Source: Synechococcus sp. HJ21-Hayes
GTDB lineage: Bacteria > Cyanobacteriota > Cyanobacteriia > PCC-6307 > Cyanobiaceae
Reading direction: 5' to 3'
DNA: 64,000 nucleotides
Assembly: GCF_024345835.1 (NCBI RefSeq)
Contig: NZ_JAGQBW010000008.1
Location: 1 to 64,000, forward strand
Part shown: positions 55,968 through 61,574 of the stretch, piece by piece
Layout: every line of letters starts with the position of its first letter
How positions within the stretch are numbered: position 1 is the first letter of the stretch
Program-made: the position numbers and the translations under genes
The notes under the pieces: model-generated
Databases searched by the model: none
The model's input: the letters and a program-made list of their open reading frames with translations, nothing else
Told to the model about the DNA's origin: nothing

Positions 55968-56489
55968 ATGTCCCAGCGTTCCCAGGCACAGGCCCCGTCT
56001 GATCCGGTGGAGGAGCTGCGCTCCGCACCGGCGCAGCAGGATGACGACGGCCATGGCGTCTGGACGCCAGTGGCGGTGGATCCCACCCGCCCGATCAGCC
56101 AGACCAACCCACCCCGCCGGGCACCCCATCACGCCCAGACCCCCAGAGCCACCGCCGGAGAGGTGGAGCGCCGCATCGCCGAGGCCCAGCTCTGGATCGC
56201 CCAGCGGCTTCCCCTGCTGCAGATCAGGGCAAATGCAGGCGAGAGCTGGGGGGTGAGCAATATCAAGACGGTCAATCGCTACCTCGACCTGGCGCGGATG
56301 CGCATGGTTGAGGAACTGATCACCGACCGCCGCCGCCATCAGGCCGAGCAGATTTTTGCCCTCAATGAGTGCGCCCGTCGGGCGATGGATGCCGATCAGT
56401 TTTCAGCAGCTGTCGGTGCCTTCCGGGTGATCGCCGAAATCGGCGGGCTGCTGCGGGCCCCGATCAAGCCCCCGGAGCCACAGGCATGA
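55968..56489 (+). CDS. Putative small terminase subunit
   Basis: 173 aa from the ATG at 55968. A Pro/Gln-rich N-terminus is followed by a helical domain: VERRIAEAQLWIAQRLPLLQ, AGESWGVSNIKTVNRYLDLA, then ARMRMVEELITDRRRHQAEQ, which could form a DNA-binding HTH. The gene directly precedes and overlaps the large terminase (ATGA at 56486-56489), the normal place of terS. The identity rests on context more than on motif. Confidence 0.6.
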   Translation: MSQRSQAQAPSDPVEELRSAPAQQDDDGHGVWTPVAVDPTRPISQTNPPRRAPHHAQTPRATAGEVERRIAEAQLWIAQRLPLLQIRANAGESWGVSNIKTVNRYLDLARMRMVEELITDRRRHQAEQIFALNECARRAMDADQFSAAVGAFRVIAEIGGLLRAPIKPPEPQA

Positions 56490-58129
56490 CGGTGATGGCC
56501 ACGGCAGAGACCATGCCAGCGCACGTGCTCGATCCCGCAGCCAGCGATGGGGGCGGACTGCTGTTGCCTGAGCTCGACCCCTGGGGCGACGCCGGCCTGC
56601 TGCACCTCCCCAGGACCACCACAGCTGCGCCATCCGAACCCCAGACCCTGCGCAGCTTCATCGCCGAGGCCTACCCCCGCTATGGCTTCCACCGCTGGGC
56701 TGAGCTGCTGATCGAGCTGCTGCAGCAGGTGGCCGATGGCGAGCTGAGCCGGCTGATCGTGACCTGTCCGCCGCGGCTGGGCAAAAGCCTGCTGGTCTCG
56801 AAGCTGTTCCCGGCCTACTTCCTGCAGCGCTACCCGCATCTGTTCGCGGCGATTGCGTCGTACTCGGCGGAGCTGGCCTATGCCCACAGCCGCGAGGCGC
56901 GCCACTTCTATCGAGTGACCGGCCACCTGCTGGCCCGCGACTCAGCGGCGGTGGGCAACTGGCTGACCCGCCAGCGGGGTGGCTGCATTGCCGCCGGTGT
57001 GGATGGGCCGTTCACGGGCAAGGGCTACAGCCTGGGGATCATCGACGACCCCTACAAGGGGCCGGGCGATGCGGCGAGCCCGGCACTGCGGGAGAAGTTG
57101 ATCGACTGGCTGCGCTCGGTGTGGCTGACGCGGGCCGAACCCGCCTCGGTGCTCGGGTCTGACGGCCAGGAGCACCCAAACCTCTCGGCCCAGGTGGTGG
57201 TGCTCACCCGCTGGGATCACCAGGACGTGATCGCCTGGCTGCTGGAGCAGGAGCAGGGCGAGGCGCCGCAGGACTGGACCGTGCTCGACCTGCCCGCCAT
57301 CGCCGAGGAGCCGGCCGAGCGCCCCCGGGTGCCGCCCACCTGCACCTTGATCCCCGACTGGCGCGAGCCAGGGGAAGCACTGTGCCCGGAGCGGTTCCCC
57401 CTGCCGGAACTGCTCAAGATCCGGGCCCGTCTCGGTGCCTACTGGTGGGCGGCGCTCTATCAGCAGCGGCCCAGCCCAGCCTCGGGCTCAATCTTCCTGC
57501 GCCAGTGGATTAGGCCGCCCTTCCCCCGCGAACATGGCAGCCAGCGGCAGTACGCCCTGCTGGCACTGGCCTGTGACCTGAGCTTCAAGGGGGAGGCGGA
57601 GAGCGATTACTGCGGCTTCTGCCTGGCCGGGCTGCTGGCACCGCCGGCCCGCTCTGCCATCCCCCGATCGGGTGATTCTCAGGGCCCATCGGGGCCAAAG
57701 GAGCTGGAGATCGAGGTGCTCTGGGCCGCCCGGCACCGCTTTGGCCTGCCGGAGGTGATCCGCTTCCTGCTCGACTGCCTGCAGGCGCTGGAGCAGCAGG
57801 GCCTGCGCCCCAACGCCCTGCTGATCGAGGACGCCGCCAACGGCCCGGCCGTGCTGCAAACCCTCCGGCGGCGCGTACCGGGGATGCTGCCGATCACTGC
57901 GCGGGGATCCAAAGAAACCCGAGCCCATGCCGTCGCCCCCCTGGTGGAGGCCGGCCAGATCCGTTTCCACCACCGCGCCCAGCCCCTGGTGGAGGAAGCG
58001 ATCCGCTTTCCCAAGGGCAGCAAGGACCTGGTGGATGCCTTCTGCCACGGTGCCCTCTGGCTGGAGGGCCGCTACTGGAAGGCCCAGGGCATCCAGCCGG
58101 TGGTGACGCCACTGCTGGTGAGCCGGTGA
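56486..58129 (+). CDS. Phage terminase large subunit
   Basis: 547 aa from the ATG at 56486. The N-terminal ATPase has Walker A TCPPRLGKSLLVSKLFP near residue 95, AAIASYSAELAYAHSREARH near residue 115 and Walker B YSLGIIDDPYKGP near residue 183. The C-terminal nuclease has metal-binding acids in LALACDLSFKGEAESDYCG near 360, LIEDAANGPAVLQTLR near 447 and VDAFCHGALWLEGR near 515. It pumps and cuts DNA during packaging. Full length with no disruption, which argues for selection. Confidence 0.93.
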   Translation: MTVMATAETMPAHVLDPAASDGGGLLLPELDPWGDAGLLHLPRTTTAAPSEPQTLRSFIAEAYPRYGFHRWAELLIELLQQVADGELSRLIVTCPPRLGKSLLVSKLFPAYFLQRYPHLFAAIASYSAELAYAHSREARHFYRVTGHLLARDSAAVGNWLTRQRGGCIAAGVDGPFTGKGYSLGIIDDPYKGPGDAASPALREKLIDWLRSVWLTRAEPASVLGSDGQEHPNLSAQVVVLTRWDHQDVIAWLLEQEQGEAPQDWTVLDLPAIAEEPAERPRVPPTCTLIPDWREPGEALCPERFPLPELLKIRARLGAYWWAALYQQRPSPASGSIFLRQWIRPPFPREHGSQRQYALLALACDLSFKGEAESDYCGFCLAGLLAPPARSAIPRSGDSQGPSGPKELEIEVLWAARHRFGLPEVIRFLLDCLQALEQQGLRPNALLIEDAANGPAVLQTLRRRVPGMLPITARGSKETRAHAVAPLVEAGQIRFHHRAQPLVEEAIRFPKGSKDLVDAFCHGALWLEGRYWKAQGIQPVVTPLLVSR

Positions 58130-58824
58130 GCAAGCCGCTGGTGTCCGCGGTGCGGGAACGTTCAGCGCCATCGCTGCTCGAGAGCCCTGCACCAGAAGCG
58201 CTGGCGCCGGTGGTTGTGCAGCTCAGCCTGCCGCTCACGGTGGTGCTGGTGGGTGATGCCGCCGAGGCGGAGCGGATGCTGCGACAACGGCGCTACCGGC
58301 GGCCGGCATGCCATGTCCGAGCGCAGCAGCTGGAGATCAACCTGCACGCTCCAGTGCGTCACCACCCCAGAGCCCAGGTCCAGCATCCGCGCTGCAGATC
58401 CCGGCGGCAGCGGCCAGTGCGGCCCCACGCCGCTGCCGACGCACTGGCGCTGGAGCATATGGATCTGGCGGAGAAGATCGCAGGCAACTTCGCTCGGCGC
58501 ACTGTCCACCAGAAGGAGGACTTGTTGCAGCTGGCGATGATCGGCCTCATCAAAGCGGCACGTCGCTACGACCCTTCACGGGGGCCGTTTCGTCCCTACG
58601 GGCGCACCTATGCCAACGGGGAGATCACGCACTTTTTGCGGGACAATGGCTTCCTGCTCAAGGTGCCGCCCACGTGGCGAGAGTTACATGCGCGGGGGCA
58701 GCGATTGCTTACTTCGGGAGTTGGCGTGGGCGAGATGCTGGAGCGAATAGGGATCAACCGCGAGCAGTGGATTCAGATCGTCGATGCATGCACAGTACGA
58801 GTGGTTGCCTATCAGGCTGAGTGA
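58126..58824 (+). CDS. Sigma-70-like factor lacking region 4
   Basis: 232 aa, with a GTG start overlapping the terminase stop (GTGA). Residues about 108-170 are sigma region 2: LAEKIAGNFARRTVHQKEDL (2.1), LLQLAMIGLIKAARRYDPSR (2.2), FRPYGRTYANGEITHFLRDN (2.3-2.4) and GFLLKVPPTWRELHARGQRL (start of region 3). The closest look is to group 3 (SigF/SigB-type) factors of cyanobacteria. The protein ends about 40 residues later without the -35-binding region 4. The first 100 residues are unique and Arg/Pro-rich. It may redirect RNA polymerase to late genes or act as an anti-host decoy. Confidence 0.8.
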   Translation: MSKPLVSAVRERSAPSLLESPAPEALAPVVVQLSLPLTVVLVGDAAEAERMLRQRRYRRPACHVRAQQLEINLHAPVRHHPRAQVQHPRCRSRRQRPVRPHAAADALALEHMDLAEKIAGNFARRTVHQKEDLLQLAMIGLIKAARRYDPSRGPFRPYGRTYANGEITHFLRDNGFLLKVPPTWRELHARGQRLLTSGVGVGEMLERIGINREQWIQIVDACTVRVVAYQAE

Positions 58825-58834
58825 ATGATTGGGC

Positions 58835-59734
58835 CTAAACTGCAGGCTTACAAGAAGTAATACCATCGACTTGATTCCCTTGCTCGACGTCAAGACTCTC
58901 TTGCTCGACACCAGATTGCGAGTCTGACGGCCACTCGGTTTCACTCACGTCAAAACTGTCAGGATCAAAAGCAAGAAACCTATTTCTCTCATAAGCCAGT
59001 AATTGACGGCCACCAAACGCTATTTGGCCAGCCGCCCTTGACGGCCAGTAGACATTGTATGGAAGCGTATTCAAGTGCTTATAGATCTTGTATATCTGAG
59101 GCGATCCGCCAATGGACGGCCTCTTGTCGTCTCGAATGAACTCAACCAATACTTCAAATGGTTCCATTACAAGACCAGCACTTTTGATTCTCTTCCTTTC
59201 TCTAAGGATTTCGTATACGCGCTCATTGGCCAACCCGGAATCATCTCCAATAAACATAAAATACTTATTGCCGCCTCCCTTCTTTACTTGCGACGAAGCT
59301 TCTTTGAATCGAAATTCGTTTACCTGTTTTTGGAAGGAGATAGACCATATCTTAAAAGACTCACAGCGCCATGAGTACCCAGCAAGAATGAAGCGTGCCC
59401 CCGCGGGGTCAGGAACTTTCTGGCCCCGTGGAAGTGAGGAGATGCTCCGCCACATTGCATTGAAGATGCGAAGAACGTGCCCTTTTAAGTCAGTTAAGTC
59501 ATACGCTCTGGACGCAAGTTTGGGGTGCATTATTACGGCGGATTGAAGCTGTAGCATTAGAGGATATGCGTCGGCCGTAGCGCCTGCAAAGGCAATAACT
59601 GAATCACCCCGCCCAAGATCGAGAACCTTGGTTCCGATATCCCATGCGCGACCGCCATTTAGCCTTGAATCACTAGCAACATAAAGCTCCGACGTAGCCC
59701 TGTGATGCCTTACCCAGGCTGCGACCAAGGTCAT
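58835..59734 (-). CDS. HslV/proteasome-like N-terminal-nucleophile hydrolase
   Basis: 299 aa, ATG start, in clearly A/T-richer DNA than its surroundings. It begins MTLVAAWVRHH, so removal of Met would expose Thr as in HslV. LYVASDSRLNGG and DIGTKVLDLG supply the Asp and Lys of the Thr/Asp/Lys active site (residues T2, D22, K36). SVIAFAGATADAYPLMLQL matches the HslV FAGGTADAF region closely. The C-terminal 120 residues are an extension not found in HslV. It is antisense to the late genes and 10 bp from the sigma stop, so it is probably inserted cargo. No HslU-like ATPase is nearby. Role unknown. Confidence 0.75.
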   Translation of the reverse strand: MTLVAAWVRHHRATSELYVASDSRLNGGRAWDIGTKVLDLGRGDSVIAFAGATADAYPLMLQLQSAVIMHPKLASRAYDLTDLKGHVLRIFNAMWRSISSLPRGQKVPDPAGARFILAGYSWRCESFKIWSISFQKQVNEFRFKEASSQVKKGGGNKYFMFIGDDSGLANERVYEILRERKRIKSAGLVMEPFEVLVEFIRDDKRPSIGGSPQIYKIYKHLNTLPYNVYWPSRAAGQIAFGGRQLLAYERNRFLAFDPDSFDVSETEWPSDSQSGVEQESLDVEQGNQVDGITSCKPAV

Positions 59735-59963
59735 AGCAAAAGTTTATCCAGCATTGGTCAAGGTTAATTGGGCGAAGCCTCGCCACAAGGCAGCAAATCG
59801 GGAGAAAGAAGACCTTCTGCCCTGCATTTTCAGAGTGCCCTGACGAGGCCCGACATGTGTAGGGCCCGAAATCGTTATTAGATACCACGCTTTCACCAGG
59901 TCTTATGCAGGCTTTCGTACTGCATATGGTTGTCTCGTCACAATTCCTGGCCCCTGGCAACTG
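59735..59963. other. Gap between the Ntn-hydrolase and portal genes
   Basis: 229 bp of A/T-richer DNA that must hold the promoter of the leftward hydrolase gene and, near its right end, whatever drives the portal gene. No further gene or clear repeat is seen. Confidence 0.5.
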
Positions 59964-61574
59964 TTGGAACGCCACCAGCAGCCAGTGCCCACCAACCGCC
60001 GCCGCAGGACAACCACCCCCAGTGGACCCTTCTCCCCACCAGAGACGGAGCCTCAAGCTCCTGCCCAGTCCCCCTGGCTGGAACACCCCACCCTCTCTGG
60101 CCTGAGGGACCGCATGCAGCTGGTCTACGACTGCTGGACCCTGCTGGAGCTGCCTGACGGAACCAGCCGCCGGCCGGTGTATCTTCCCCGCGGCATCGAG
60201 GAACCCGAGACCTGCTACACCAAGCGGCTGGAAGCGGCTCGCCCCACGGGCTTCTACCGCGATGCCCTGCGCACCTACGCGGGGATGCTGTCGCGCTTGA
60301 GCTGGCAGGAGCTACCCGACTCCCTGACCCGGGTAGCCACCGATGTGGATAGCCAGGGCACCGACCTGGGGGTGTTCCTGTTCCTGGCCGATCTGCTCAC
60401 CCTGCGGGATGGCGGCTGCCTGATCCTGCAGCTACCGCCCCAGCACCGTTGGCCCTCAGAAGGCGACCGGCTGGAAGCCCTCGCCAAGGGGGACCGGCTC
60501 TCGCTGCCGCGGTTGCAGCTGGTCCCCCGAGGCGACCTGCTCAACTGGCGCCTGCCCACCGGTGCAAACAGCGCCGCGCCGGTATCGGGACCGGTGGAGA
60601 TCGTCTGGCGCGAACCGCGCCGCCAGGCCTTGCCGCCCCGGTTCGCCAGCGGCAACGCCGCGGTGCTCACCGTGGTGCTCGACGCCCACGGCGGCCTGGT
60701 GCCTGATCCACAGGCCTGGCTCTACCGCAGCCTCTCGGTGACGGATGACGGCCTGGTGCTGCGCAGCTGGCAGGCCAACCCCAACCCTGCTGCGGTTGAT
60801 GGTTACGACGTGGTGCCGGTTGGTGAGCCGGAGCGTATGGCGCAGCGCTTTGACCTGCCGGCCCTCTGGTACTCGGTGGATGGCACCGCCTTTGGCGAGG
60901 GCGATCTACCCCATCTGGGCCTGGCCCATCAGTACCTCAACCACTACCGCTGCCGCAGCGAATACGAAGACCTGCTCTCTCGCACCGCCCTGCCGGTGGG
61001 TGTGCGCACCGGCCTGGTGGATGCCTACGGCTTCCGCCGCAGTGATTGCGCCCTCGGTTCAGGTGCTGCCACCGGGGGGGCAGAAGGCCAGCGTCCGCAG
61101 CGGCTGGTGCTCTCGACCTCCTCCTTCATAGACTTGCCCGAGGGCGCCAAGTTCCAGTGGGTCGAGATCGAGGCCCGTTCGCTGGCGGAGCACCGTGCCT
61201 ACCTGCAGCAGCTGGAGGAAGCGATGCGCCGCGACGCCCTGATCCCTGCTGGTGGTCACGGTCCAGCCCGCACCGAGCTGGAGATTTCCCTGACTGCCGG
61301 CCAGAGCTTTGCGGTGCTGCAGTCGCTGGCAGGCCAGAAGAGCTCGATGCTCAACACCCTGCTGCGCCAGTGGACCCGCCTCACTGGCGAAAAGCTGGCG
61401 GATCTACCGGCCTGCAGCGTGGAGATCTGCCCGCTGGTGCCCCCGCAGCCACCACGCAAACCCCAGCCCTCGGTGCAGGAGTGGCTGGTGCTGCATGAGC
61501 GGGGGGTAATCGACGTGGCCGAGCTGCGCAAGCAGCTGGGGCTGGGCGAGGCCAACGGGACCAGTGGCGGCTGA
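59964..61574 (+). CDS. Phage portal-like protein (DUF4055)
   Basis: 536 aa, TTG start; no ATG lies in a better position. After a Pro/Arg/Gln-rich N-terminus, LRDRMQLVYDCWTLLELPDG, YLPRGIEEPETCYTKRLEAA, TGFYRDALRTYAGMLSRLSW and VDSQGTDLGVFLFLADLLTL follow the DUF4055 pattern, a family of portal proteins. PHLGLAHQYLNHYRCRSEYE near residue 315 and the C-terminal SVQEWLVLHERGVIDVAELR complete it. The portal is the ring through which terminase packages DNA. The inserted hydrolase gene separates it from terL. Confidence 0.82.
   Translation: MERHQQPVPTNRRRRTTTPSGPFSPPETEPQAPAQSPWLEHPTLSGLRDRMQLVYDCWTLLELPDGTSRRPVYLPRGIEEPETCYTKRLEAARPTGFYRDALRTYAGMLSRLSWQELPDSLTRVATDVDSQGTDLGVFLFLADLLTLRDGGCLILQLPPQHRWPSEGDRLEALAKGDRLSLPRLQLVPRGDLLNWRLPTGANSAAPVSGPVEIVWREPRRQALPPRFASGNAAVLTVVLDAHGGLVPDPQAWLYRSLSVTDDGLVLRSWQANPNPAAVDGYDVVPVGEPERMAQRFDLPALWYSVDGTAFGEGDLPHLGLAHQYLNHYRCRSEYEDLLSRTALPVGVRTGLVDAYGFRRSDCALGSGAATGGAEGQRPQRLVLSTSSFIDLPEGAKFQWVEIEARSLAEHRAYLQQLEEAMRRDALIPAGGHGPARTELEISLTAGQSFAVLQSLAGQKSSMLNTLLRQWTRLTGEKLADLPACSVEICPLVPPQPPRKPQPSVQEWLVLHERGVIDVAELRKQLGLGEANGTSGG

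Follow-up and report, generated by a model that had tools for sequence, protein, structure and literature searches.

A predicted proteasome/HslV-type hydrolase as variable cargo of a cyanobacterial prophage: a candidate mobile defence effector

The window analysed here is the whole stretch of 64,000 nucleotides at the start of contig NZ_JAGQBW010000008.1 of Synechococcus sp. HJ21-Hayes, and towards its right end lie late genes of a phage. On the plus strand, with gene identities taken from PHROGs, these are the large terminase gene that forms the left side of the backbone (56369–58129; phrog_38, E 5.3e-77; 85–93 per cent identity in 10 viral contigs), a sigma-factor-like gene (58126–58824; phrog_351, E 1.9e-17; 75–82 per cent identity in 10 viral contigs) and the portal gene (59964–61574, start codon uncertain; phrog_145, E 1.2e-18; 88–93 per cent identity in the related phages used). 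Between the last two, an interval at 58825–59963 with a GC content of 0.49 holds an uninterrupted open reading frame of 299 aa with an ATG start, which occupies exactly 58835–59734 on the minus strand. It begins at the portal side and reads towards the sigma-factor-like gene, leaving 10 bp from stop to stop, and we assign it to a proteasome/HslV-like Ntn hydrolase from the reading frame, a 19-member alignment, a profile match to HslV and the predicted fold.

The original prediction, made from the sequence of the window, had placed this gene between terminase and portal; it does split the sigma-factor-like and portal genes, and it is not directly flanked by the terminase gene. The antisense orientation relative to the late genes and the A/T-rich DNA that were described there are both plain, the gene having a GC content of 0.48 (GC3 0.47) and the surrounding phage backbone mostly 0.65–0.71. 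An ATPase partner had been reported as lacking, and indeed neither an AAA+ partner nor an hsd gene was recognised among the reading frames at 52–64 kb when these were inspected by eye and eight proteins were compared with PHROGs. Searches near the gene returned no promoter-like or terminator-like sites (1.3 of each expected by chance), and no direct repeats framing the insert were found.

The protein belongs to a family with members of 275–337 aa, of which 19 intact ones were aligned, with the broken copies L006, L009 and L011, the partial L081 and the duplicates L080 and L178 omitted. T2, D22, S23, K36 and G51 are invariant in all 19, as are M1, L25, G28, L40, R42 and D44 and, later in the chain, E191, P192, G210 and Q213. 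The catalytic positions of the proteasome are given as Thr1, Asp17 and Lys33 in the part of the published family survey available to us (Fuchs, Alva, and Lupas 2021, PMC8665760). On the minus strand of the window, the Thr2 codon (59729–59731) would specify the nucleophile, Asp22 (59669–59671) aligns with the HslV aspartate and is the predicted counterpart of Asp17, Lys36 (59627–59629) aligns with an HslV lysine and is the predicted counterpart of Lys33, and Gly51 (59582–59584), part of an FAG motif common with HslV, is predicted to be the oxyanion-hole glycine (Gly47 in the proteasome). An HslV-like set of threonine, aspartate and lysine had been proposed at HslV-like spacing; the residues are all present, and the spacing in the window protein (Thr-20-Asp-14-Lys) is close to that of the proteasome, not identical to it. 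The proposed near copy of an HslV segment is evident in FAGATADAY, which reads FAGATADAF in the HslVs met in this analysis. The conserved Met-Thr start suggests, given the known specificity of methionine aminopeptidase, that this enzyme exposes Thr2.

Judging by substitution patterns, the family appears to be under purifying selection. Nonsynonymous differences (pN) are well below synonymous ones (pS) in all 20 pairs listed, pS being saturated in most. The window gene and its Sinimarinibacterium relative give pN 0.12 and pS 0.81 (saturated), and two further pairs give dN 0.13 with dS 1.30 (L003 and L051) and dN 0.06 with dS 0.75 (L008 and L055).

The likeness to HslV emerges from profiles. Alignment of the 19-row family with eight HslVs in hhalign gave a probability of 93 and an E of 3.4e-7 over 67 columns that include the aspartate, the lysine and the FAG glycine, while the best of 40 column shuffles reached a probability of 1.5 and the reversed profile 0.3. 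The family profile also matches the HslV gene of a surveyed genome (L027, HslV by NCBIfam) at E 2.9e-7, and its top sequence match in the PDB is the HslV 4hnz (E 0.0078). The NCBIfam HslV models NF003964 and TIGR03692 score the window protein at 13.5 and 13.2 bits, under their cut-offs of 137 and 157.75. Pfam holds no family for it at E up to 5, PF00227 (Proteasome) included, and PF00227 has no match anywhere in the genome; single-sequence searches of PHROGs and PADLOC returned 0 families.

A structural model points the same way. AlphaFold2 with seven sequences gave a model of moderate confidence (mean pLDDT 58.5, pTM 0.55); a poorer one from five sequences (pLDDT 42.7) was set aside. Two short helices left aside, the modelled elements open with four strands, followed by two long helices, a further four strands, a second pair of helices, three strands and a last helix that ends at residue 253, and this order is, in the model, that of a proteasome subunit, a four-layer alpha-beta-beta-alpha sandwich. 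The best 50 PDB matches listed by Foldseek are all proteasome entries (top E 5.6e-6), with low query TM-scores of 0.26–0.36. Superposition on the proteasome subunit 9rm1_K gave Z 10.4 over 173 residues at 3.9 Å, and on the Anbu subunit 5nyw_N Z 10.0 over 190 residues at 4.0 Å, with sequence identities of 12 and 9 per cent, respectively. HslV is not among the 50 PDB matches listed in the second structure comparison, an absence that excludes nothing. No viral structure matched at an E of 0.001 or below; the closest, at E 1.4e-3, was a 181-aa phage protein labelled 'ancestral beta-subunit'. The comparison with proteasome and Anbu structures thus returned an Ntn sandwich, and together with the profile alignment and its shuffled controls it bears out the assignment to the proteasome/HslV type, which we regard as well supported for a prediction from sequence and model. 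The 120-residue C-terminal extension that had been described is, by the same model, mostly Ntn core: the PDB superpositions cover residues 1–239, the predicted sandwich takes up about 241 residues, and a low-confidence tail of about 58 is left over.

Among the closest known enzymes, HslV (ClpQ) shares the Thr/Asp/Lys set and the FAGATADA segment. It differs in being about 185 aa long against 275–337 aa for the present family, which moreover starts Met-Thr directly at the catalytic threonine with no longer lead, has no recognised HslU-like partner, and is mobile and rare. Anbu and the 20S proteasome have a similar predicted fold, yet the family is without a PF00227 match and has the low sequence identities given above. 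In the portions of their survey available to us, Fuchs, Alva, and Lupas (2021, PMC8665760) describe 22 proteasome-like clusters, among them PPH, RPC, DAH and AAH, of which PPH and AAH travel with phages. These are likewise uncharacterised proteins of prokaryotes and phages, and our comparison is with their published descriptions, DAH and RPC being the foremost candidates for identity with the present family. At about 140 residues, PPH is too small to accommodate members of 275–337 aa. RPC is described as lacking helix H2, confined to proteobacteria and provided with a C-terminal domain (PMC8665760); set against that description, the window protein has a predicted H2-like helix (residues 80–99), and its family has members in Cyanobacteria, Actinomycetota and Bacillota.

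The family is rare, patchy and spread across phyla. A scan of genomes found three close relatives, in Sinimarinibacterium (77 per cent), Comamonas (72 per cent) and Desulfatitalea (70 per cent), and members occur in Cyanobacteria, Actinomycetota and Bacillota besides proteobacterial and desulfobacterial genomes. It is absent from 98 relatives of the window's genome, the one match in 99 being the genome itself. Later surveys used a nine-member profile, the larger ones being samples of bigger groups. Among 292 cyanobacterial genomes, the window's own was the single one with a full-length member; elsewhere such members came from 1 of 369 genomes of the class of Sinimarinibacterium (that genome itself), 5 of 247 from the phylum of Desulfatitalea and 5 of 398 from that of Comamonas (query genomes included), and further surveys recovered the query genome alone (1/3, 1/250, 1/46 and 1/22). 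In the Comamonas phylum 101 of the 398 genomes gave a match of any kind; 96 of these are short (profile columns about 1–81) and, as HslV or distant kin, were left out of the family count. Twenty-five short-match loci (L026–L050) were laid out, and an HslV-type reading frame was seen by eye in 23; L041 holds a different relative and L043 was left unclassified. The L041 gene (967–1749), with 260 aa and the motifs ATDSRFS, K and FAGD, possibly represents a more distant sister family.

Most members found sit outside phages. A tblastn search of a plasmid collection gave eight records, one of which, with a length of 4.9 Mb, appears to be an E. coli chromosome filed under a wrong label, and two divergent members as queries gave the same eight. 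The window protein had no match among phage records and viral contigs, nor did later viral scans with other queries or a search of phage records with the L013 protein return any. Searching E. coli genomes with the DNA of the Comamonas and Klebsiella genes likewise gave none. Among 5426 E. coli genomes, 127 gave a match to a copy of the gene on the chromosome (in strain M7424 at L059 20001–21001); this copy is interrupted by an in-frame stop in the one record translated (L009), adjoins a tyrosine-recombinase gene near ypjA in the two annotated loci, and looks like the relic of an acquired gene. On a Lactiplantibacillus plasmid there are two copies of a divergent member (27 per cent identity; L012 10001–10918 and L178 3440–4357), both with IS21-type transposase genes alongside.

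Maximum-likelihood phylogeny pairs the window protein with that of Sinimarinibacterium as sisters (98/98), nested in a clade of proteobacterial and desulfobacterial members (100/100). The phage-borne members (the window, L013 and L082) fall into three separate groups, each with non-phage kin and supported at 100/100 in two cases and at 81/91 for L082 with L058, so phages have probably acquired the family more than once. A gained accessory gene had been proposed, and this is what the data indicate: neither the 98 relatives nor the other cyanobacteria sampled have it, related phages carry different cargo in its place, its nearest kin are proteobacterial, and the search for homologues and their neighbours gave no housekeeping distribution.

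Fifteen sigma-portal intervals were compared (the window, L062, L063, L065, L066 and L070–L079), with both borders present in 12 and the left border beyond the locus in L063, L065 and L066; a second copy from the genome of L063 (L067) stood outside the comparison. The distant portal relatives L064, L068 and L069 were excluded, the first having an interval with a GC content of 0.66 and without clear cargo and the others intervals at 0.49 and 0.52. Portals 88–93 per cent identical to that of the window come from contig 12 of the same genome, two sister genomes and 10 viral contigs, and those at 55–57 per cent from contigs 9 and 36 of the same genome and a third sister genome. The 12 complete intervals measure 1.06–4.24 kb, GC content is 0.43–0.50 in 14 of the 15 (0.63 in L077), and 20 of the 23 reading frames of at least 150 aa are antisense. 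The 14 other intervals all hold cargo different from that of the window, and no cargo protein is common to any two (blastp, E 1e-3), the sole matches between intervals being short plus-strand frames beside the portal. It is therefore well supported that the sigma-portal interval is a cargo hotspot with conserved flanks and variable contents, and different cargo at the same place in relatives marks the Ntn gene as gained accessory cargo. The window's genome has four related portals, on contigs 9, 12, 36 and 38 (identities, in descending order, 100, 90, 57 and 56 per cent), and it seems to harbour several coexisting prophages of a single type; hotspot cargo differs at least between contigs 12 and 38.

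Pfam was run on 20 cargo proteins. Nineteen were drawn from the 22 reading frames of at least 150 aa that the other 14 intervals contain, and the twentieth came from the more distant L068. Thirteen matched at E 0.01 or better, ten of them over the cut-off, and seven matched nothing. Over the cut-off are the N and C domains of GmrSD (L075), AAA_23 and ABC-3C CTD6 in two proteins of L077, Peptidase_U49 of the Lit family in the sister prophage L062 (E 4.1e-6), HNH (L074), DUF3800 (L076), DUF4365 (L066), DUF6338 (L068), a serine-esterase-like protein (L079) and a methyltransferase (L071); RiboL-PSP HEPN (L073), Bro-N (L070) and a zinc ribbon (L065) fall under it. We take the GmrSD, ABC-3C, Peptidase_U49 and HNH cargo to be defence families. 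The seven proteins without a Pfam family (from L072, L073, L074, L078 and L063) are candidates for new genes of phage conflict.

A Lit-family member in the very slot that the Ntn gene occupies in the window invites a comparison of how the two might work. Lit itself belongs to the zinc peptidases and acts in phage exclusion by cleaving EF-Tu; its fold and chemistry are unrelated to those of Ntn hydrolases. Hotspots of this kind have precedent: antiviral hotspots are described in P2-like phages and P4 satellites (Rousset et al. 2022, PMC9122126), and the one of P2, flanked by a replication gene and the portal gene, holds diverse anti-phage systems. The cyanophage slot resembles the P2 and P4 hotspots, as so described, in placing variable defence-type cargo at a fixed position of a temperate phage, and differs from them in belonging to another phage family and in lying between sigma-factor and portal genes.

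The gene also occurs among head genes of a second phage type. On the phage contigs L013, L081 and L082 it lies on the late-gene strand before a tail-completion gene. It follows a head–tail connector gene in both L013 and L082; L081 itself starts with the Ntn gene. Both gene labels and the alphaproteobacterial origin of these phages are presumptive assignments of ours that draw in part on position. Such a location in two phage families, on the late-gene strand in one of them, might be expected of a virion or morphogenesis protease that processes capsid or portal. The variability of both slots speaks strongly against this: 14 of the 15 cyanophage intervals hold other cargo, and of the connector relatives (at least 598 matches, the best 80 analysed) 73 loci had both borders, representing 72 distinct contigs (L082 and L083 are one), of which two carry the Ntn gene (L013 and L082/L083). 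The interval from connector to tail-completion gene spans 462–3241 bp, its contents vary among those listed, and most family members found lie outside phages. We consider a morphogenesis role very improbable and have rejected it. A functional tie to the phage sigma factor was rejected on the same variability, and no special link to the sigma or portal genes is supported. Loci L083–L162 describe a second phage family with a highly variable cargo slot among its head–tail genes.

Outside phages, several neighbours belong to families of the defence type. DUF6602 and AbiTii lie directly downstream of the Ntn gene in L004, AbiEii two genes upstream in L058, a Schlafen AlbA_2 protein two genes upstream in L003 and also at L054, and 8xMP directly upstream in L051. 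The Klebsiella plasmids L005 and L006, a near-identical pair, have a GTPase gene pair upstream, one gene of which is annotated as dynamin-like in L005, and in L006 the Ntn gene follows an IS5-like transposase gene and is broken into two frames in the annotation. The plasmids L008 and L011 have an ATPase and helicase pair in common, and L057 is a long run of short reading frames, nearly all on one strand, which from their layout looks like an integron cassette array. Other genes recur between loci: a chemotaxis-type protein in L002, L005 and L055, an intron reverse transcriptase in L005 and L012, and LysR-type proteins in L008 and L056. Some neighbours are ordinary: there are cobalamin-type genes in L002, an efflux gene in L052, SelA in L054 and, in L055, a gene for a periplasmic binding protein. 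No partner gene recurs at every locus.

PADLOC matched 302 families among 148 neighbouring proteins and 66 among 141 control proteins, a count that agrees with the defence-type company but is redundant, dominated by type I restriction models and weak, so that we gave it little weight. The scan took 148 of 176 neighbour and 141 of 190 control reading frames, those longer than 1300 aa and random others having been dropped; L178, which carries a copy of the gene, was excluded as a control, and L006, L009, L011 and L012 lay outside the test set. In the per-family matches, for which the best 25 families were listed, controls also matched models of type II methyltransferases, type II restriction enzymes and reverse transcriptases.

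A closer association is seen in three desulfobacterial type I restriction operons (L052 5989–13483, L053 468–5832 and L054 4947–14442), where the Ntn gene directly follows hsdS and precedes hsdR, with a Schlafen-domain gene intervening in L054. The hsdS–Ntn junction is a 4-nt overlap in L052 and L053 and a 1-nt gap in L054; hsdM comes first in both L052 and L054, a position not reached by the L053 contig. Pfam was run on three hsd genes of L052 (hsdM, hsdS and hsdR) and on the hsdM gene of L054, and blastp against these served to assign the remaining ones. The three Ntn proteins form one clade (100/99), in genomes from different classes of one phylum. The arrangement raises the idea of a restriction-control protease that trims or destroys a type I subunit such as HsdR and so alleviates restriction, guarding against self-restriction in the operons and, as prophage cargo, acting on type I systems of the host to ease entry of the phage or of later DNA; there is precedent in ClpXP, for which HsdR is reported as a target when restriction is alleviated (PMC4231737). 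However, the operon is seen only in this clade, no hsd gene was recognised at 52–64 kb of the window, and early action would be expected of an anti-restriction gene, an expectation to which the antisense cargo position lends nothing. We rate restriction control as unlikely.

We consider it on balance probable that the window gene encodes a stand-alone mobile Ntn hydrolase, an interchangeable passenger of the hotspot that protects the lysogen and its prophage from competing phages. The anti-phage reading follows from the hotspot position and the defence-type company, and the defence role is to this extent an inference from context. Protection of the lysogen against other phages had been suggested as a possibility from the outset; its support comes from neighbours and slot position. 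Set against it are the lack of a PADLOC match for the window protein, the ordinary nature of several neighbours, the methyltransferase cargo of L071, the 7 of 20 cargo proteins without a Pfam family, and the moderate pLDDT and low TM-scores of the model.

In such a mechanism Met1 would be removed and Thr2 would become a free N-terminal nucleophile, which with Asp22 and Lys36 and the oxyanion hole at Gly51 may hydrolyse an amide bond, presumably, once a phage infects, in one particular protein of phage or host. The enzyme would work without a dedicated AAA+ unfoldase, and by analogy with the Lit peptidase family its action could either abort the infection or block the invader. Since no AAA+ gene was recognised next to the window gene and no partner gene is constant elsewhere, a stand-alone specific enzyme is likelier than a bulk protease. 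The lack of a recognised AAA+ partner would also suit a non-protease Ntn enzyme, either a protein ligase or an amidase acting on small molecules or modified nucleotides; connectase, in the part of the survey available to us, is a monomeric ligase of proteasome-like type (PMC8665760). Nothing specific points to these activities, which sequence does not separate from proteolysis, and we rate them as improbable, while noting that they overlap with the defence reading.

It might also be that the gene is a fitness passenger with no part in defence, for example a proteostasis peptidase of the Anbu or BPH kind that helps a stressed lysogen. The closeness of the fold to Anbu would fit, each of the two phage slots has some occupants that do not look like defence genes, and the survey of Fuchs, Alva, and Lupas (2021, PMC8665760), in the portions available to us, reports no functional or otherwise informative gene context for its 22 clusters. 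A rare and patchy spread in recurrent defence-type company is unlike that of a housekeeping peptidase, and we hold a fitness passenger to be unlikely.

Extending the preferred reading of a defence effector to the whole clade is more tentative: it is conceivable, though short of probable, that the clade constitutes a mobile immune effector that acts alone as cargo of phages and plasmids and in one branch has been built into type I restriction systems as a fourth subunit, an arrangement in which a single operon would combine restriction of DNA with an enzyme of the proteasome type. A search of the literature found no relevant published report of a proteasome-type enzyme in phage defence, and to our knowledge this would be the first enzyme of the proteasome family with such a role. 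What is new is the gene context of a proteasome-like clade, in the form of phage slots, Abi-type neighbours and type I operons, which is absent from the survey of Fuchs, Alva, and Lupas as far as the text available to us extends. Proteasome-like proteins of unknown function are widespread in prokaryotes, and the context of this clade makes the role of one orphan homologue directly testable. The hotspot of these cyanobacterial temperate phages, several of whose occupants are uncharacterised, is likewise a place in which to seek new defence genes.
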